Shown: positions 7,629 to 58,408 of the stretch, in pieces
Layout: each line of letters begins with the position of its first letter
Numbering within the stretch: the first letter of the stretch is position 1
From: Streptococcaceae bacterium
Lineage (GTDB): Bacteria > Bacillota > Bacilli > Lactobacillales > Streptococcaceae
NCBI GenBank assembly: GCA_031269775.1
Contig: JAISYQ010000005.1
Coordinates: 62,001-126,000 of the forward strand
Reading direction: 5' to 3'
DNA: 64,000 nucleotides
Position numbers and translations under genes: made by a program
Notes under the pieces: generated by a model
Told to the model about the DNA's origin: nothing
Databases searched by the model: none
What the model saw: only the letters and a program-made list of their open reading frames with translations

Positions 7629-7773
7629 GTATATCTTTTAAGTAAAAAATCTAAAATATGAGCAACTGGAATCCCTTCGATAACAACAAAAAAATACCTG
7701 CTAAAAAATATTGTTTTTTTATAGAAGTATTGCTATAGTTTGCCTGTTGAATATTTTTATCCATTGACTATTT

Positions 7774-7789
7774 TATAGTTGATTAACTT
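7774..7789. promoter_or_regulatory. Palindromic operator-like site 1 upstream of fabH
   Basis: TATAGTTGATTAACTT contains the near-palindrome AGTTGATTAACT. Its exact reverse complement occurs at 8005-8020. Paired sites about 230 bp apart ahead of the FAS operon suggest a repressor, for example a FabT-type MarR protein whose boxes are also AGTTTGA-like palindromes. The link to FabT is inference. Confidence 0.45.
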
Positions 7790-8004
7790 GGAAACTATCA
7801 TATCTTTGTGAAAGATTTTGCTTTGAAATATTTTTTTTTGTGAGCGATTTTCAATCATAAACCCGTTTTAAGAGCCTATTAACAATCTTTAGTTAAATGA
7901 ATCGCTTAAAAATCGTTAACAGAATTTAAGAAAATACATGCTTCATTTTCTTTTATCCATTAAAGTAAGCATCGCTAACTTTTACAAATTTGGTGTTAAT
8001 TTTT

Positions 8005-8028
8005 AAGTTAATCAACTATATGTAGAAT
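8005..8028. promoter_or_regulatory. Operator-like site 2 with candidate fabH promoter -10
   Basis: AAGTTAATCAACTATA is the exact reverse complement of the 7774-7789 site. It ends 2 nt before TAGAAT (8023-8028), a candidate -10 about 45 nt ahead of the fabH ATG, so a bound repressor would cover the spacer. The -35 is weak. Confidence 0.45.
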
Positions 8029-8069
8029 ATGCAATGCTTTGCTCCAAAAATTCAATATGAGGTTAGCAA

Positions 8070-9047
8070 ATGGCGCAACATACTAAGATAAGTGCTACAG
8101 CTCACTATGTTCCTGAAAAAAAGGTGAGCAACGATGATTTTTCACAAATTACGGATACAAGTGACGAATGGATTAAAGCGCGCACAGGAATTGCTAATCG
8201 ACGTATTGCAACTATTGAAAATACATCTGATTTATGCATTAAAGTTGCTCAGTTTTTATTAAAAAAAGGTAAAATTTCAGCTAATGAGCTTGATTTTATT
8301 TTAATTGCAACGATGACTCCTGATTATCTTATGCCTAGTACAGCAAGCTTGGTTCAAGGGCAGATTGGAGCGCTTAATGCTTTTGCGTTAGATATTTTGG
8401 CCGCTTGTTCAGGCTTTGTTTATGCGCTTGCTTTAGCTGATAAGTTAATTTGTAGTCATGCATATAAAAAAGGTTTAGTGATTGGCGGTGAAGTGGTATC
8501 AAAACTTCTAGATTGGAATGATCGCTCAACATTTGTGTTATTTGGAGATGGGGCTGGTGGAGTATTATTAACATCTGATAACAAATCTCATGTGTTAGCT
8601 GAAAAATTACAAACTGATGGATTACGCGCAGATGCACTGACAGCTGGTGAATTGCCACTTCACTCACCGTATAGTTTTTCTAAGAAGGCAGATTCGTATT
8701 TGAAAATGGCTGGTCGAGAAATTTTTGATTTTGCTATTCGTGATATCCCTAAAAATATTAGCGCAGCTTTACAGGTAGCAAATCTTGATGTGGAGGATAT
8801 TGATTATTATTTATTGCATCAGGCAAATATTAGAATAATTGATAAAATTGCAAAAAAATTGAATATTCCTCGTTCAAAATTTTTAACAAATATAGAAAAA
8901 TATGGGAATACGAGTGCAGCATCAATTCCTATTTTGTTGGATGAAGCTGTAAGTTATGGGATATTAAATTTAGGTTCTGGACAAAAAGTAATGTTAACAG
9001 GTTTTGGTGGAGGATTGACATGGGGCAGTATGTTGATTTCTCTTTAA
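8070..9047 (+). CDS. fabH: 3-oxoacyl-ACP synthase III FabH
   Basis: Starts fatty acid synthesis by condensing an acyl-CoA primer with malonyl-ACP. The 325-residue thiolase fold has the catalytic triad in order: Cys in DILAACSGF (about residue 112), His in LLHQANIRI (about 250) and Asn in YGNTSAASIP (about 280), plus the C-terminal GFGGGLTWGS. The ATG follows GAGGTTAGC. It is first of eleven genes that form the entire FAS-II operon, preceded by a long leader with operator-like palindromes. Confidence 0.97.
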   Translation: MAQHTKISATAHYVPEKKVSNDDFSQITDTSDEWIKARTGIANRRIATIENTSDLCIKVAQFLLKKGKISANELDFILIATMTPDYLMPSTASLVQGQIGALNAFALDILAACSGFVYALALADKLICSHAYKKGLVIGGEVVSKLLDWNDRSTFVLFGDGAGGVLLTSDNKSHVLAEKLQTDGLRADALTAGELPLHSPYSFSKKADSYLKMAGREIFDFAIRDIPKNISAALQVANLDVEDIDYYLLHQANIRIIDKIAKKLNIPRSKFLTNIEKYGNTSAASIPILLDEAVSYGILNLGSGQKVMLTGFGGGLTWGSMLISL

Positions 9048-9091
9048 ACCGATAGCATAAAAAAACAATTAGATTACTGGAGGAATTACTA

Positions 9092-9316
9092 ATGGCAACA
9101 TTTGATAAAATCAAGGATATTATTGTAGAAGAATTAGGAAAAGAACCAGAAGAAGTAACACTAACAACTTCTTTTGAAGATTTAGATGCAGACTCTTTAG
9201 ATTTTTTTCAGATTATTAATGAGATTGAAGACGCTTTCGATGTGAAAATTGAATCTGAAGAAGGCTTAAATACGGTTGAAGATTTAGTTAAATTTGTTGA
9301 CGATCAAAAAGGTTAA
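9092..9316 (+). CDS. acpP: Acyl carrier protein
   Basis: A 74-residue acidic four-helix protein that carries growing acyl chains. The phosphopantetheine serine lies in DADSLDFFQ (Ser 35), preceded by the usual TTSFEDL. It has a textbook GGAGGAA ribosome site. Its place between fabH and fabK is typical of the lactobacillal FAS operon. A 198-nt gap with a hairpin follows. Confidence 0.96.
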
Positions 9317-9384
9317 AATTATAAATTTAATAAACCTGTTCTAAAACTAGGACGTGATTAAAATGGTATTCAATATGATATTCT

Positions 9385-9430
9385 CGTTCTAAAATTTGTA
9401 ATCAAGCAAAGCTTAAAACAAATCTTAGAA
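9385..9430 (+). other. Hairpin in the acpP-fabK spacer
   Basis: GTTCTAAAATTTGT and ACAAATCTTAGAAC pair over 14 bp with one mismatch around an 18-nt loop. There is no T-run, so it is not a classical terminator. It may protect the abundant acpP transcript or set the ratio of acpP to the downstream genes. The rest of 9317-9514 shows no gene. Confidence 0.5.
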
Positions 9431-9514
9431 CCCGACAGATCTAATATATGAAGGTGTTGTAACTTACGACTGTCACGTTTTACTATATTTTCATGATTTA
9501 AGGAAGAAAGACAT

Positions 9515-10474
9515 ATGAAATCAAAGATGATGGACTTACTAGGTATTAAATATCCAATTTTCCAAGGGGGAATGGCCTGGATAGCTGATGGTGATTTAGC
9601 TGGTGCAGTATCAAAAGCTGGCGGTCTTGGAATTATTGGTGGTGGTAATGCACCAAAAGAGATTGTTCAGAAAAATATTCGTAGAGTAAAAGAACTTACT
9701 GATAATCCGTTTGGTGTTAATATTATGCTGCTTTCTCCTTTTGTTGACGATATTGTGGATTTGGTAATTGAAGAAGGCGTAAAAGTCGTGACAACAGGCG
9801 CTGGCAATCCTGCAAAGTATATGGAGCGTTTTAAGAAAGCAGGGATGATCGTAATCCCTGTTATTCCTTCTGTTGCCTTAGCTTATCGGATGGAAAAAAT
9901 CGGTGTGGATGCCGTAGTTGCCGAAGGAATGGAGGCAGGCGGACATATCGGAAAACTTACAACGATGGCTTTGGTGCCTCAAGTAGTGAAAGCTGTTAAG
10001 ATTCCTGTTATTGCTGCTGGAGGAATTGGTGATGGTGCAGGGGTTGCAGCTTCTTTTTGTCTTGGAGCAAAAGCTGTACAGGTAGGAACACGTTTTGTTG
10101 TAGCAAAAGAATCTAATGCACATGTTAATTATAAACAAAAAATTATTAAGGCTCGTGATATTGATACGGTGATATCAGCTTCGCATTTTGGGCATGCTGT
10201 GCGTTCGATAAAGAACAAATTAACTCGTGCTTTTGATGAAGCTGAAAAAGCTGCTTTTAAACAGGATAATCCAGACTTAGAAATCTTTGAAGAGATGGGT
10301 GCAGGGAGGCTACCAGCATCAGTTATTGATGGGGATGTAGAAAACGGTTCGGTTATGGCCGGGCAGATTGCTGGCTTAATTTCTAAAGAAGAGACAGTTG
10401 AAGAGATTTTAAAAGATCTTTATGAAGGTGCACGAGAAATTATTGCTAAAGAAACTAAACTTTGGCTTTGGTGA
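9515..10474 (+). CDS. fabK: Enoyl-ACP reductase II FabK
   Basis: FMN-dependent enoyl-ACP reductase that completes each elongation cycle; it replaces the FabI type and is naturally insensitive to triclosan. The 319-residue TIM barrel of the nitronate monooxygenase superfamily begins with GIKYPIFQGGMAWI. It shows the flavin phosphate-binding segments GGIGDGAGVAASFCLGA and VQVGTRFV. The adjacent fabD and fabG identify it as FabK rather than a stand-alone nitronate monooxygenase. AAGGAAG precedes the ATG. Confidence 0.95.
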   Translation: MKSKMMDLLGIKYPIFQGGMAWIADGDLAGAVSKAGGLGIIGGGNAPKEIVQKNIRRVKELTDNPFGVNIMLLSPFVDDIVDLVIEEGVKVVTTGAGNPAKYMERFKKAGMIVIPVIPSVALAYRMEKIGVDAVVAEGMEAGGHIGKLTTMALVPQVVKAVKIPVIAAGGIGDGAGVAASFCLGAKAVQVGTRFVVAKESNAHVNYKQKIIKARDIDTVISASHFGHAVRSIKNKLTRAFDEAEKAAFKQDNPDLEIFEEMGAGRLPASVIDGDVENGSVMAGQIAGLISKEETVEEILKDLYEGAREIIAKETKLWLW

Positions 10475-51760: not shown

Positions 51761-52339
51761 TTATAAATCTTTCTTGCTAAAAGTTAATTCTGTTACATAC
51801 GCAAAAATATAAATAATTCCATAAGCAACAAAAATTTCGAACCAAAAAATAAAAAAGTCTAAAAAACAATTCTGAAATGAACATTTACTTATTAAAATAT
51901 TAAAGACTTGAGAAAATATTGTAGAGGTAATGATAGCTGAAATAGCAAATTGAAAAATATTAAGAGAAAAACTTAAAAATAACAAGATAGAAGAAAGCAC
52001 ACTTATAAAAAGAAAACAACTGCCCAAATAAAATGGTAAAAAATTCGGGATATTCTCGCCCGCTTTATTTGTGATAGAGCAAATAAAAACTGTAATTTTG
52101 TTGACTAAAAAAACAATCGTTGCAAATAATAAAGTGAAATTATATCTTGAAATAATAATATCATGCCTTTTATACTTTGCAGTCAAAAAACCGTTTAGCC
52201 CTGAAGATTGATTTTCTTCCATCTTAACTGAAGACAAGATAATAAATGGAAGGAAAAAATTCAAATTTAAAATTATTTGGTTTAAAACAGTCACGGAAAT
52301 AAACCCCATTTTATTGGCAAAAAATATCATAATTACCAC
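51761..52339 (-). CDS. ABC-2 type permease of the RiPP island
   Basis: A 192-residue membrane protein with six predicted helices. The first canonical start is GTG 52339, but coding sequence clearly continues upstream to about 52417 (SKYSFFLFKKINVHKKNF), where a GAAAGG site precedes only CTG or ATT in frame. The native start was therefore probably lost or is non-canonical. NGFLTAKYKRHDIIISRYNF matches a cytoplasmic loop of the plus-strand permease at 54308 (TTRYKKQDTVLSR), so they are paralogues. It pairs with the broken ATPase just upstream. Confidence 0.6.
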   Translation of the reverse strand: MVIMIFFANKMGFISVTVLNQIILNLNFFLPFIILSSVKMEENQSSGLNGFLTAKYKRHDIIISRYNFTLLFATIVFLVNKITVFICSITNKAGENIPNFLPFYLGSCFLFISVLSSILLFLSFSLNIFQFAISAIITSTIFSQVFNILISKCSFQNCFLDFFIFWFEIFVAYGIIYIFAYVTELTFSKKDL

Positions 52340-52413
52340 ATAAGGAATTAATAAAAAATTCTTCTTATGAACATTAATTTTTTTGAATAAAAAGAAAGAA
52401 TATTTGCTTATAA

Positions 52414-53264
52414 TCAGTGCCTTTCTGATATGGTCGCCAACATGATTTCTTCGATCGTTGAATGCAAAATCTCAAATCTTTCAAATTTTTCTTTCACAAA
52501 ACTCTCTTCTCCTTTGAAAAATCCTCTAACTTCTCCATTATTTTCAGTAACTTTAAGGAATATTTTCCGATTCTCATCATTATTTAATTTTGCATCTCCA
52601 ACCACAGTAAAATAAGAAACTTTCAAAGTGTGGATATTCTCATTTAAGATAATCTCGCCCTTATGGATGAAAACAATATTATCGGCAATTTTTTCAAGAT
52701 CTGAAGTAATATGGGAAGAAAACAAAACGCTTACACCTTCTTTTATAAGATCTTTTATAATTGTTAAAAATTCTTCACGAAAAAGTGGATCAAAACCACT
52801 TGTCGGCTCATCCATAATCAGTAGTTCTGCATGATGGGAAACACAAGAGCAAGCGAAAATTTCATCTTTATTCCTCTTGAAAGCTCTTTTAATTTTTGCT
52901 TTAAGGGCAAATCAAAACGATCAATAAATGCATCAAATTTTTCCTGATACCAATTAGAATACCCATGAGAAAATATTTCGGCTTGTTTTTTTACACTAAT
53001 ATCTGGATAAAAGTACTCTCCATCTAGCAAAAATCCCATACGGTCACGAAGTATGCCTTCATTCTTTGAGTTCATCACTTCCCCAAAAATGTGAATTTCT
53101 CCAGAATTTGGAATCACAAGACCCGCTATTGCTTTGATGGTCGTTGTTTTTCCTGTCCCATTAATTCCAATAAAACAGTAACTGTTCCTTTTTTTATCGA
53201 AAAATTTATGGAATTAAGGCAGAAATTATCATATTTTTTCGTTAAATTTACGATTTCTAAGATG
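52414..53264 (-). pseudogene. ABC transporter ATPase with two frameshifts and no start codon
   Basis: The minus strand encodes an ABC ATPase in three frames: LEIVNLTKKYDNFCLNSI from about 53260, a shift near 53170 (one T lost), Walker A FIGINGTGKTTTIKAIAG, then signature LSRGIKMKFSLAL, another shift near 52835, then HHAELLIMDEPTSGFDP and the C-terminus ending ATISERH at 52414. The first codon in frame is ATC where ATG is expected. It overlaps the stop of the preceding gene and is followed by the permease. It was the motor of an exporter in the RiPP island. Confidence 0.8.
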
Positions 53265-54306
53265 TTTTAAATGTCTTTTTTTTCCATAACATATCCTCAC
53301 TCATCTCTTTATTTTTTATTCCTTCCAACATAGGAATTTTGATATCTTGGCAAAAGCAAGACTCACTGACCCACTTGCCATGATTCATGGGAATTGCTTC
53401 ATTTAAAATGTCCTTTGCTTGAAATTTCAAATCAAATTTCTGTCGATCATGTGAAAGGGCCACACCAATAAATATTTTTTGATAGGAATCGTATACCAAA
53501 TTTTCAAACGCCACAATTCGATGAGATACATCTTCACATGAATCAGTGATACTTTCGTTAAAATTCGCTATAATTCTTTGATGCGAAATGGGATTTTCGC
53601 AATTCAAACTTGAATTACCAGAGTTTTCAATTTGAAGATATTTTGAATAACTTTCATTACTGATAAATCCTAAAATTTGACCGTTTTTTATAAAAAAATA
53701 TTCTTTAATTTTCGTACCCTCATAATCAAAAACAATTCCTTCATAAGGCAAAGAAATAAAGTTGAAATTTGAAGAAAATATTTTTTTCTGTAAATCATCT
53801 AGTCTATATTCTGCATTATTGAAATATATGTAATCCGAATAAAAAAAGCGAACATAGTTTTCAAGGAACGTAGTAAATGCTTTTTGGGTAAGTATAATTT
53901 TTTTTCCACTGGGATTGAGCTTAAATTTTTGGATATTTTTTTCTATAGAGTCATCAAACCAATCATCATTTAGAAATTTGTCTTTCCCTGAGTAAAATTT
54001 TTCAGGATTTGCTGGAGCAAAATAAAAAAGATCCGAATCTATGAAAATTGTTCAAAATTCTCTTTTGAAGTAATCAATTGATAACGATATAGTTCTATTT
54101 TGTAAAAAACACCCCAATCATCATGCTCCCTTAGTTGATTTTCTATCCAAGAATGATATAGCTAACGAATATAATTTTCTTTTCTCGTATTGACTTTTAA
54201 AAATCTTAGTTTGTTTATTATAACATTTAATGAAGTTGTCTGGGGGAATTTTTTTGATAAGATTATGTTCATTAAAAACGCATTCATTAGAATGAAGGTT
54301 CTTCAT
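53257..54306 (-). pseudogene. TldD-like (TldD/PmbA family) RiPP protease remnant, tentative
   Basis: Pieces in successive frames: MKNLHSNECVFNEHNLIKKI from ATG 54306, then after a shift and a TAG LYHSWIENQLREHDDWGVFY, another shift near 54045, then an intact stretch to the stop at 53257. The last part has IVFDYEGTKIKEYFFIKNGQ, followed by SNESYSKYLQIENSGNSS and SHQRIIANFNES, which resembles the C-terminal domain of TldD proteins. TldD/TldE pairs trim peptides in microcin B17-type pathways. At least three lesions. Its start overlaps head-to-head with the permease at 54308. The family call is moderate; the zinc motif region is not identifiable. Confidence 0.45.
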
Positions 54307-54307
54307 A

Positions 54308-54990
54308 TTGAAAAAATACATATATTTATTTCTTAAAGACTTAATGATTACAAAATACATCCTCCTTTTCTATATAGCAGCATTCTTATATATGCCTGCT
54401 GTAATGGACTTTTTTATATGTTCTTTGGATTCCAATTATGTCTTTGCCAATCTTTCTGAAAAAGCGTCAAATATCATTTTAATGCAAGTTTTTTAATATA
54501 GCACTTATATTTTTATTCTTTTTTCTTAGATTGTTACTATCAAAATGGTATGAAATTATCACTTACTACGCGATACAAAAAACAAGATACTGTTCTTTCA
54601 AGATGTTTTCTTGTCTTATTAAATTTTTTATGCATTTTATTCAGTACATTTTTATACTTAATGAGCTTTTTTAAAATTTTTTATTTAGAAATTCTTCCCA
54701 TATTTTTATTGTCTTATATAATGTACACCATGGTAATGAGTATCCTAATTCCCATTTCCTTATTAGTTAAAAATTTCTACATAGGTAGCGCTGTTAGTTT
54801 TATCCCTATTTTGCTTCTTGTTGAATTGTGTGTTACTGGAAATGACAATAGCGACTGGAGTTCATATAACAGATTTAAAGGAGATCTATTTTATTCACTA
54901 AACAATCTGCCAATTGCTATCAAGGCATTTTCATTAACAACTATTTTTTTAATAGTTTCCATTTATTTATCACTTCAAATTTTTACATGA
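54308..54990 (+). pseudogene. ABC-2 type permease remnant 1
   Basis: TTG 54308 (GAAGG site) starts KKYIYLFLKDLMITKYILLF. The frame stops at 54496 and a second frame runs from before 54550 (YYQNGMKLSLTTRYKKQDTV) to TGA 54990. At least one frameshift lies between 54480 and 54540. About six membrane helices in total. It is a paralogue of the permease at 51761 and the remnant at 55395. It stands directly before the candidate precursor gene. Confidence 0.65.
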
Positions 54991-55006
54991 AAGAAGGTGA
55001 GGAAGG

Positions 55007-55174
55007 ATGAAAAAAATGGAGAAACCTGAGATTCATATTACGGTAAATGCTGCTTTTTGTGCTGCTAAAAACAATAACATTGCAATTAAAATTGGAATAG
55101 GTGCATATGTAGTTGGCCTTCCTATGGTCTTAATCTGCAATGCAATTGCTGTCTTGTGCCTTCAAACTTGGTGA
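55007..55174 (+). CDS. Candidate RiPP precursor peptide (55 residues, three Cys)
   Basis: ATG 55007 follows AGGTGAGGAAGG at good spacing. The product starts MKKMEKPEIHITVN, a polar leader-like segment, then AAFCAAKNNNIAIKIGIG, AYVVGLPMVLICNAIAVL and CLQTW. Cysteines are at 18, 44 and 51; the core is hydrophobic and ends in Trp. Size, leader/core contrast and position ahead of a PqqD/radical SAM/SPASM maturase are what a sactipeptide- or ranthipeptide-like precursor would show. No known precursor sequence is recognised. The ORF is intact. It could alternatively be an unmodified membrane-active bacteriocin. Confidence 0.6.
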   Translation: MKKMEKPEIHITVNAAFCAAKNNNIAIKIGIGAYVVGLPMVLICNAIAVLCLQTW

Positions 55175-55233
55175 ACCTGCAGGTTAATATACTTTTTCCC
55201 TTATTTAGCTCAATTTTATAAAACATTGCATTT

Positions 55234-55286
55234 TTGTAATTCTCTTCGTTATTTTTTATTTCGTAGAGAATTACAAGCTTGTTTTT
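55234..55286 (+). terminator. Hairpin downstream of the candidate precursor
   Basis: TTGTAATTCTC and GAGAATTACAA form a perfect 11-bp stem around a 21-nt loop, followed by GCTTGTTTTT. It could end most precursor transcripts. A second palindrome, AACCTGCAGGTT, lies just past the stop codon (55174-55185). The rest of 55175-55394 has no gene. Confidence 0.5.
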
Positions 55287-55394
55287 CCAAAATCAATAAC
55301 AAGTTACCAATTAAACTGAACCACATTATGTAAATATAAGATGCGCATTGTATGAATCCAAGCTTAAATAAAAGTAGTTATACCAAAAATAACC

Positions 55395-55993
55395 ATGGTG
55401 TATAAAAATTTAATTAATCTTGTAAAAAAAGACCTTGCGGTCACAAAATACGTAGCTCCCTTTGCTATCTTCTTTATGACTACAATTTTGAGTGCAGATC
55501 TCCTTTTTTGTTACGAAGAATCTGAGTTTTTTATCGTAACACTCGCTATGATTCTTTTTGAAACAATCTCAATCGCTCAATATTTTGGAGCTGATTTTTA
55601 CTTTCTGCTGAAAATTTAATAATTTTTCTTTTGTTTTTAATTTCACTTCCAGATTTTCATTACACATATTTACCGATAATGCTTTGTTTTTTTTATGGTA
55701 TAAATGTTCTATATGTTTCAATATTACTCCCATGCTATTTTTATATTCGAACCATAATAATATTTTTTTGCATTGCAATTCCTATGAATTGGATTTTTAT
55801 GGGTTTAATTATATTGCTTAGTGGATTTTATTCCTAAATACGAAAATCTAATCCTTGAAATAATAAAATTTGTAAATAATTTCTTTATTTTTGTAAGTAT
55901 ATTGTTAACAATCACGATTATCTTGTGGATATCTATTTTTATATCAAAAAAAAAATTTGGCAAAAAAAGATTTTTAATTTCCGAGGAGATCTA
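55395..55993 (+). pseudogene. ABC-2 type permease remnant 2
   Basis: Three frames in succession: 55395-55619 (NLINLVKKDLAVTKYVAPFA), 55631-55837 (YLPIMLCFFYGINVLYVSIL), and a last frame to TAA 55993 (DFIPKYENLILEIIKFVNNF, then membrane helix ILLTITIILWISIFI). It is a paralogue of the permease at 54308. Its final codons coincide with a solo MITE end (TTAATTTCCGAGGAGATCTA), so the present stop codon comes from the repeat. Confidence 0.6.
55974..55993 (+). repeat. Solo end of the MITE-like repeat
   Basis: TTAATTTCCGAGGAGATCTA matches the right end of the 222-bp element; the rest of the element is absent. It lies 40 nt before the radical SAM gene. It marks either an excision scar or an old insertion whose other parts have been lost. 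Confidence 0.55.
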
Positions 55994-56032
55994 ATATCTA
56001 AAGTGACGTCTTTTTTTAATGGATGAGAAAAA

Positions 56033-57328
56033 TTGTATTTAAAATTAGTTGAAAAATCTTATATAAAAATCAATCCAAATCACTGCTCTTTAGTTTTTTA
56101 CAAAAATAGTTTTCGATCATCTTTTCCGATCAACAATTCTGCGTATGAAATTTTACGCTTGTGTGATGGAATTCATTCTTTTCAAGAAATTGTTGAAAAT
56201 TTGAAAAGCGTTTATGATGAAGAGCTAAAAACAATCCAAGAAAATGTTTCAGAATTTCTCACACCTATGATCGAAGGAGGATTTATTGAAAAAGTTTCTT
56301 CAAAGACTTGTTTTAAAACAGTCAAAGGTAGTACAGAAATTTACTATCCAGATAATCTGTGTTGGGAAATTACTGATTATTGTCCACTAAATTGCAGACA
56401 TTGCTACCTGCTTAACAAAAATAATACTTATATTTCTAGAAAAAATATCGATCAAGTGTTAAAAATCATGGATACTTATGGAATTAATACCGTCCAATTA
56501 ACGGATGGCGAAGCGTTGACACATCCATATTTTGATTATATTTTGGACGAACTCATAAAAAGAAGTTTAGTAATTAATATTTCGACCAGCGGTGTATATT
56601 TCAACGAGAAGTTACTAACAATTCTTGAAAAAATAAAGAAAATCAAAAGCAGCGTCGTCAAGGTGAGTTTAGACGGTAATGAAGATACCCATACTTTTAT
56701 TCGCAATAATTCTGAAAGCTATAAGAAAACGTTACAATTTTTGAGTGAACTGAGTCAAAGAAATATTCTATTCCAAATTGCCAGTGTACTCATTGACCAA
56801 AGCAAAGAAGAGATAAAAGATTTAGTATATACTGCGAAAAAATTAGGGACTGAGTTAATCGAAATCAGAAATATCTTAGAGCAAGGAAATGCCAGAAAAA
56901 ATCATTTAAAAACTAATTTAACTCCTAATGAACTAAGTAAGCTATTGAAAATTTTAAAAGACAAATACGAAGATAAAAATTTTGTTGTAAAAACTCCCGA
57001 TGCCAAAGAACAACCAAATCATCAAAATAATTGTGGAGCTGGATATATGATTCTTCGTTTTAAAGAAAATATGGATGTGACTCCTTGCCCAATCATTGAT
57101 TTTTGTTTAGGAAATTTACGTGAACAATCATTTGAGGCAGTCATGCAAGAATATGCTCATAAATTCAGTAAATTTCATTCCCCATGTGAACAATTTTGTA
57201 AAACATGCGAAAAAGATGATTACTGTGCTAATTGTACCGCATGTGGTATCAACAGTAAAGAAAAGGTACAACGATGCAATTGGTATGAAAAACAAAAGAA
57301 AATTTTTTTCCCTGAAAAAATTACGTAA
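56033..57328 (+). CDS. PqqD-like/radical SAM/SPASM RiPP maturase
   Basis: An intact 431-residue protein from TTG 56033. Residues about 1-95 form a PqqD-like RiPP recognition element (PINNSAYEILRLCDGIHSFQ). Residues about 110-320 are a radical SAM barrel with the 4Fe-4S motif CPLNCRHCY; the usual GGEP is seen as DGEALTHP. The C-terminal SPASM domain has CGAG, CPIIDFC and a cluster of CxxC-type cysteines for auxiliary Fe-S centres. Such enzymes install thioether or C-C links in ribosomal peptides. The likely substrate is the 55-residue peptide at 55007. All key cysteines are present, so it may be active. Confidence 0.88.
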   Translation: MYLKLVEKSYIKINPNHCSLVFYKNSFRSSFPINNSAYEILRLCDGIHSFQEIVENLKSVYDEELKTIQENVSEFLTPMIEGGFIEKVSSKTCFKTVKGSTEIYYPDNLCWEITDYCPLNCRHCYLLNKNNTYISRKNIDQVLKIMDTYGINTVQLTDGEALTHPYFDYILDELIKRSLVINISTSGVYFNEKLLTILEKIKKIKSSVVKVSLDGNEDTHTFIRNNSESYKKTLQFLSELSQRNILFQIASVLIDQSKEEIKDLVYTAKKLGTELIEIRNILEQGNARKNHLKTNLTPNELSKLLKILKDKYEDKNFVVKTPDAKEQPNHQNNCGAGYMILRFKENMDVTPCPIIDFCLGNLREQSFEAVMQEYAHKFSKFHSPCEQFCKTCEKDDYCANCTACGINSKEKVQRCNWYEKQKKIFFPEKIT

Positions 57329-57402
57329 CCCTTTATAATTTAGGGTAAATGTCATAAAAAATATTTCATTCGCTCTTTTTTTACTTTACGAGGAGATGGG
57401 AA

Positions 57403-58303
57403 ATGTTAGAAGTTATAAATTTACAAAAACATTTTGAAGATTTCTGTGCCATAAAGAATCTTTCCTTCACCATAAAATCTGAGCAAATCCTTAGGTTAAT
57501 TGGCCAAAATGGAACTGGAAAACACTACCTTCCGTTTAATTTTGAATCTTTTAAACAAAGAAACTGGAAGGGTTCTGTGGAATGGGGCATGATCTAAATC
57601 AATCAGATTATAACGAAATTGGCTTTTTACCTGAGGAACGCAGCCTTGATCCAAAAGATACGGTTGAAAATCAACTTTATTTCTTTGCTGCGCTTCATGG
57701 TAAGTCAAAAAAAGAAATCGATCCATTGATTGATAAATATCTGGAAAAATTTCAGGTAAAAGGAAAACGCAAAGGCAAAATAAAGAAGCTTTCAAAAGAG
57801 AATCAACAAAAAATTTAATTAATTACTACATTGATTCCTCAACCAAAACTAATTATTCTAGATGAACCATTTTCAGGTCTAGACCCTGTCAATACACAAA
57901 TTTTAATTGATGGCATTCTTGAAATTAAAGCAAATGGTACAAATATTATTTTTAGCTCTCATAACATGGATAATGTAGAAAGATTTGCGACCAACTCATC
58001 ATGCTTTGCAATGAAGAAGTGATTCTTGATGGTTTTGTTCAAGAAACTCGTGAGGGTTATGGTCGCACGCGATTAACGATTGAAAGCACACTTACAAAAC
58101 AAGAATTATTAAACATAGCAGATGTTGAATCCGTAAAAGAAACCTCTACTTCTGCTTACCATCTAATTTTAGAAAATCCGTTTATCGCACGCGACATCTG
58201 AAAAAAAGCAATGAAACAAACAGATTATCTACCTGTATTTTCTACAGAATCACCAACACTTGAAGAAATATTCAAAATGAAAGTAGGAGAAGCGCATGGA
58301 TAA
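57403..58303 (+). pseudogene. ABC transporter ATPase (NatA/YhaQ-like), at least five lesions
   Basis: An AGGAGATGGGAA site and ATG 57403 start MLEVINLQKHFEDFCAIKNL with Walker A GQNGTGK, then frameshifts near 57525 and 57590. NEIGFLPEERSLDPKDTVEN follows, a signature with Glu for Gly (LSKENQQK), a TAA at 57817 where Gln fits, Walker B LIILDEPFSGLDPVN, another shift near 57990, and a TGA at 58199 after which the frame runs on (KKAMKQTDYLPVFSTESP) to the natural stop at 58303. The domain order and the tail LEEIFKMKVGE fit NatA/YhaQ-type exporters. Confidence 0.85.
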
Positions 58304-58408
58304 ATTATGGGTAATCACACTTAGTGTATTTAAGAAAAATATAAAAAATATTGGGTTTTGGACGATGGTCTTATCACCAATTTTGAGTATTTCAATCGCT
58401 ATTGCTAT
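58296..58408 (+). pseudogene. ABC permease (YhaP/NatB-like) truncated by a MITE
   Basis: ATG 58296 overlaps the end of the ATPase gene and follows AGGAGAAGC. Only MDKLWVITLSVFKKNIKN and the start of a membrane helix (WTMVLSPILSISIAIA) remain before MITE copy 6 begins at 58409; no continuation is found beyond the repeat. Confidence 0.75.

Follow-up and report, generated by a model that had tools for sequence, protein, structure and literature searches.

A probable recently decayed RiPP gene cluster from a branch of radical SAM maturases beside the subtilosin AlbA group

In a 64,000-nucleotide stretch of a Streptococcaceae genome (hereafter the window) a 55-residue open reading frame (ORF) lies upstream of a gene for a radical SAM/SPASM enzyme, and an earlier note on this DNA proposed that the two belong to a candidate undescribed RiPP with a three-cysteine peptide. 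This raises the questions of whether the locus codes for a functional pathway and how it relates to known peptide clusters. We consider it likely that this locus is what remains of a RiPP cluster, recently decayed and from a branch sister to AlbA, whose intact form would combine sactipeptide-like crosslinks, leader digestion by a TldD/TldE pair and ABC-dependent export and immunity.

The small ORF is present where the earlier note had placed it (Table 1), upstream of an open maturase frame and with the leader and the cysteines (positions 18, 44 and 51) that had been reported. Genome mining for co-occurring homologues, which that note had proposed, recovered precursor and maturase together in other genomes, that is, the small ORF is conserved near the maturase. 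Within the genus, maturase matches occur in four of the five genomes, as do precursor matches; the precursor has 60 residues in G003 (locus L009) and 63 in G004 (L010), and the maturase downstream of it is 84% and 78% identical, respectively, to that of the window. Further pairs were found in G001 (L018), in a Lachnospiraceae contig (L011, with the ORF just downstream), and in two Enterococcaceae-like genomes of one family, presumably Enterococcaceae: G456 (L036), which has three tandem precursors, and G428 (L037). In each of these loci the precursor adjoins the maturase. A search of 3280 ORFs with a profile built from the genus precursors gave the L011 ORF as its top match (E 0.0047), followed by the L018 ORF (E 0.13); likewise, when a profile built on the three peptides of L036 was searched against 2934 ORFs, L018, L011 and L037 took ranks 1-3 (E 8.9e-5, 0.014 and 0.024). 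With homologues adjoining maturases in the sister species and in additional families, the 55-residue ORF is no mere chance frame. On plasmids, searches with the maturases of the window and of the Enterococcaceae returned no match at E 1e-20, and a cluster TldD as query in the same series recovered distant, generic TldD proteins only. The genus includes the MAGs Gsp477_bin117 and Roe453_bin115; since other MAGs with these prefixes were recovered from two termites, Glyptotermes and Roisinitermes ebogoensis (PMC11707648), a termite-gut origin is likely.

Alignment of the precursors revealed a short, M-x-(K)-P-E-I-like leader in which the pattern M..P.I is invariant. Two cysteines, corresponding to positions 18 and 44 of the window ORF, are likewise invariant, with the third variable; within the core region no other reactive side chain is conserved throughout. 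The precursors of the intact clusters are hydrophobic and 40-60 residues in length (63 in L010). Consistent with the reported lack of a match to known precursors, no Pfam or NCBIfam family was recovered for any precursor of these clusters, and Subtilosin_A (PF11420) did not match them, while the control, the L063 precursor from the M16 side of the maturase tree (see below), scored 70.4 bits. The DNA alignment further revealed a frameshift near the 3' end of the window ORF, at about 55155-55165, with a net shift of one base relative to L009. Given that the DNA 3' of this point still aligns with the relatives, but in another frame, the C-terminal QTW, which had been taken for the end of the peptide, is a product of decay. 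The reading of the ORF as an intact novel precursor was rejected on the basis of this alignment and of the cluster comparison, and a working three-cysteine peptide is not supported, with only two cysteines invariant, the end frameshifted and most of the cluster pseudogenised. As a separate observation, an orphan precursor of the same family (MKKMEKPCI...) lies behind a permease homologue in G004 (L020, contig C42, 7050-7232), with no maturase seen nearby; the maturase on contig C12 may act on it in trans. At 2656-2880 the same locus also has a hydrophobic ORF of 74 residues, with genes for membrane and ABC proteins after it; this ORF matches TIGR03651 (circularin A/uberolysin-type circular bacteriocins) below threshold (E 0.049).

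The maturase frame is open over 431 codons from a TTG start and recovers Radical_SAM (4.1e-18) and PqqD (5.1e-9) in Pfam searches, in agreement with the reported enzyme with a recognition domain, and the alignment displays seven SPASM-type cysteines. The description of the enzyme as intact holds for the frame but not for the SAM-binding motif, where the window protein alone has DGE; in the 17 others of the comparison the motif is GGE. Among solved structures SkfB comes closest to the maturase profile, with CteB (5wgg) also matched. The best NCBIfam model is AlbA, at a score far below its equivalog cut-off of 850 bits (107.3 bits for the window and 128.6 bits for L018). With a dN/dS of about 0.16, similar to that of the sister maturases, the gene is, by this measure, under purifying selection; since the ratio is still that of its sisters, the decay of the surrounding cluster appears to be recent.

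This decay was mapped by tblastn searches of the window with the L009 and L010 cluster proteins (Table 1).

Table 1. Features of the cluster remnant, in window coordinates
Feature	Position	Strand	Basis
permA, ABC-2 permease; ATG lost, frame open; shorter GTG frame 51761-52339	51764..52411	-	tblastn, translation, weak Pfam ABC2_membrane_5
ABC ATPase A; two frameshifts	52426..53287	-	three frames needed to match the intact L009/L010 protein
TldE-like partner remnant; first 117 residues missing, frameshifted	53284..54161	-	tblastn; PF19289 match
permB, ABC-2-type permease; one frameshift	54308..54999	+	tblastn with L010 permB, two frames
Precursor-like ORF, 55 aa	55007..55174	+	ORF list, homologues beside maturases, DNA alignment with sister species
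permC, ABC-2 permease; two frameshifts, no start region	55404..55973	+	tblastn with L009 permC, three pieces
Radical SAM/SPASM maturase with PqqD-type recognition domain; GGE motif is DGE	56033..57328	+	Pfam, alignment and motif check, dN/dS about 0.16
Second ABC ATPase, NatA-like; three frameshifts	57397..58297	+	four pieces, three frames against L009/L010
NatB-like ABC-2 permease, first 28 residues; about 390 residues deleted	58296..58379	+	tblastn; intact L009 protein PF12698

Of the three paralogous ABC-2 permeases in the earlier note, all three are present and related (the intact L009 permC matches Pfam ABC2_membrane_5), but frameshifts interrupt permB and permC, and permA lacks its ATG. 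The reported TldD-like protease remnant is likewise real, but it derives from the TldE-like partner and is the only PF19289 match in the whole genome; TldD, whose gene adjoins the TldE-like gene in the sister species, was absent from the window in tblastn searches with the sister-cluster proteins. The genome of the window measures 1.2 Mb and belongs to a genus of small Lactobacillales genomes. On another of its contigs (L021, G000:C14, about 7680-9481) a second maturase, of the L018 type, is interrupted by stops; ahead of it lie a permease-like ORF and a precursor-like frame that starts METPTIEV and is frameshifted. This is another decayed cluster of the same kind. Further radical SAM homologues with interrupted frames occur near several ABC ATPases in L024 (G000:C11, about 8100-10330), perhaps a further decayed peptide cluster. 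Two decayed copies would fit a process of genome reduction. It could be argued that the window cluster is functional and that its frameshifts are errors of sequencing or assembly, given an assembly in 32 contigs and a maturase frame that is open and constrained. However, at least nine frameshifts, the missing TldD and the deleted NatB fall within 7 kb whereas the flanking housekeeping ORFs are full length, and the second copy in this genome is likewise broken, which makes such errors an extremely improbable explanation. Going by the broken frames of protease, transporters and precursor, the pathway is very probably dead in this genome, with the maturase as its last long open frame.

The intact form of the cluster was found in two sister species, probably from termite guts, as a paralogue in a third, and in the two Enterococcaceae genomes. 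The loci L009, L010, L018, L036, L037 and L042 combine the maturase with ABC ATPase and permease genes and a TldD-like protein; there are several precursor genes per cluster and two ABC systems. The TldD-like protein retains the HExxxHxxExD motif and the C-terminal CxK in all six intact loci, and the partner lacks the motif in all six. The assignment of the former as TldD is supported by Pfam (PF19289) in L036, L037 and L042 and by NCBIfam in L009 and, weakly, in L018; for the L009 protein, E. coli TldD comes closest among solved structures. The partners in L009, L036 and L037 have a TldE-compatible PF19289 match; the 269-residue partner in L018 had no recognisable TldE match by Pfam or profile comparison. 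In G001, G003, G004, G456 and G428 these cluster genes are the only PF19289 genes of the genome, and for these five we reject the possibility of a chance housekeeping neighbour. No PF19289 genes were found in the M16-type genomes G564, G1337, G1240, G1399 and G1149; G428 and G564 are of one genus, and TldD/E is present only in G428, the one with this cluster. In the 3.6 Mb genome G738 (L042) adjacency is weak evidence, because that genome has 16 TldD/TldE-family genes, mostly in adjacent pairs. This count is in itself an unusual expansion. Just upstream of the maturases in L042, whose operon holds a TldD/TldE pair, and in L041 are short precursors of more subtilosin-like appearance with CxxC and SFP motifs (GCVGC..., ACAAC...), with no Pfam match and, for the one tested, no NCBIfam match.

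In the maturase tree the TldD/E-associated rows, on a side that also takes in four unlabelled rows, are separated from the M16-peptidase group by a branch with support of 100/99, and the branches to the AlbA-type group are long. On the subtilosin side M16 domains were detected in L061-L064 and the HxxEH motif in L038; L065 was labelled M16 in the tree as well, but an M16 domain was absent from its single tested protein, and the labelled group is to be read without it. No HxxEH motif was found in the long ORFs of the TldD/E-type loci. These sequence comparisons make the maturases a well-supported sister group to the AlbA-type maturases of subtilosin. Against the TldD/E reading count two maturases of the same branch without TldD in their genomes and without the two-cysteine precursor: in L053 (9581-9679) and L052 (8077-8250) they adjoin an MFS-like transporter and a different small peptide, possibly of another type, whose leader has KP-x-F and which ends in CAQGR followed by one more residue.

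Beyond the observed genes, motifs, co-occurrence, phylogeny and decay, we infer the following course for the intact pathway. The PqqD-type domain of the maturase would bind the short leader, and the radical SAM/SPASM center would most likely crosslink the two invariant cysteines to the alpha-carbons of residues in the core, the sactipeptide type of bond, a thioether chemistry suggested by relatedness. In microcin B17 maturation TldD/E cuts back unfolded N-termini until it meets modifications that can no longer enter (PMC5810440, PMC10885120); by analogy, the cluster TldD/TldE may digest the leader from its N-terminus until the crosslinks stop it. The ABC-2 transporters would then export the hydrophobic product, probably an antibiotic peptide, and protect the producer. 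It counts against this scheme that the sequence does not reveal the acceptor residues and that only two cysteines are conserved. The same cluster could instead install a ranthipeptide-type beta or gamma thioether, a carbon-carbon crosslink or an epimerisation: RRE-bearing radical SAM/SPASM maturases form several bond types (PMC6231123), and both the CteB match and the long branches to the AlbA-type group favor this. Yet the nearest characterised relatives by profile, AlbA and SkfB, are both sactisynthases, and the restriction of invariant reactive side chains in the core to cysteine speaks against a non-sactionine modification, which we regard as rather unlikely. That the peptide is a signal or regulator rather than an exported bacteriocin, with TldD/E as a turnover protease, might be suggested by the implication of TldD/E in roles beyond RiPP leader removal (PMC5810440, PMC10885120). 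However, the several precursor genes, the two ABC systems and the RRE-bearing maturase fit an exported RiPP better, leaving a signalling role very unlikely. Next to L036 lie AgrB, a sensor kinase and a LytTR regulator, and next to L037 an Rgg regulator. By these neighbours the cluster may be under quorum-sensing regulation; they could also be read in favor of signalling, but regulators of such types often control bacteriocins.

Returning to the preferred reading of a sactipeptide-like cluster, the branch beside subtilosin with its own TldD/TldE pair in place of M16 peptidases is apparently undescribed. TldD/E, which is known to cleave off RiPP leaders, is often encoded outside the RiPP cluster, with exceptions such as ammosamide (review, PMC10885120), and within the open-licence literature we found no paper on a sactipeptide or subtilosin with cluster-encoded TldD/E or PmbA, which is no proof of absence. 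More tentatively, and at not quite an even chance, we propose a RiPP lineage of its own, separate from subtilosin, with a dedicated, cluster-encoded TldD/TldE pair in place of the M16 pair AlbE/AlbF; the first crosslink would set the final N-terminus, and the chemistry is possibly non-sactionine. Two sister lineages with unrelated two-subunit metalloproteases make both the role of paired proteases in sactipeptide maturation and that of crosslinks as a stop signal for the protease testable. The combination of maturase group, TldD/E and M-x-(K)-P-E-I leader offers a search handle for precursors missed by curated families; thus the window copy, though a remnant, leads to intact, testable copies.

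With sactipeptides in general the clusters share an RRE (PqqD) and radical SAM maturase with the SPASM cysteine set, and a cysteine-bearing core behind a leader in a precursor next to the maturase. SkfB, from the SkfA/SkfB system, is the closest solved structure and has in common the RRE and radical SAM domains, but it has a Twitch domain where these maturases carry the SPASM cysteines, and its precursor and protease are different. Microcin B17 and E. coli TldD/TldE share the protease type, with HExxxH and a C-terminal cysteine ligand; that peptide is azole-modified with TldD/E encoded outside the cluster, whereas here the pair is cluster-encoded and the sole one in the genome. The closest counterpart is subtilosin A (sboA-albABCDEFG), with a related RRE, radical SAM and SPASM maturase (AlbA), a hydrophobic cysteine-containing precursor with a short leader, ABC transport and a two-protein metalloprotease. 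It differs in that the present precursors do not match Subtilosin_A, the maturases lie across the 100/99 branch and score 107-129 bits against the 850-bit AlbA cut-off, and a TldD/TldE-type pair stands where subtilosin-type clusters have the M16 peptidases AlbE/AlbF, which bears out the earlier note's view of a layout unlike that of standard sactipeptide clusters. By the tests made, the cluster is thus related to subtilosin biosynthesis and predicted to work like it, and it falls outside the subtilosin family.
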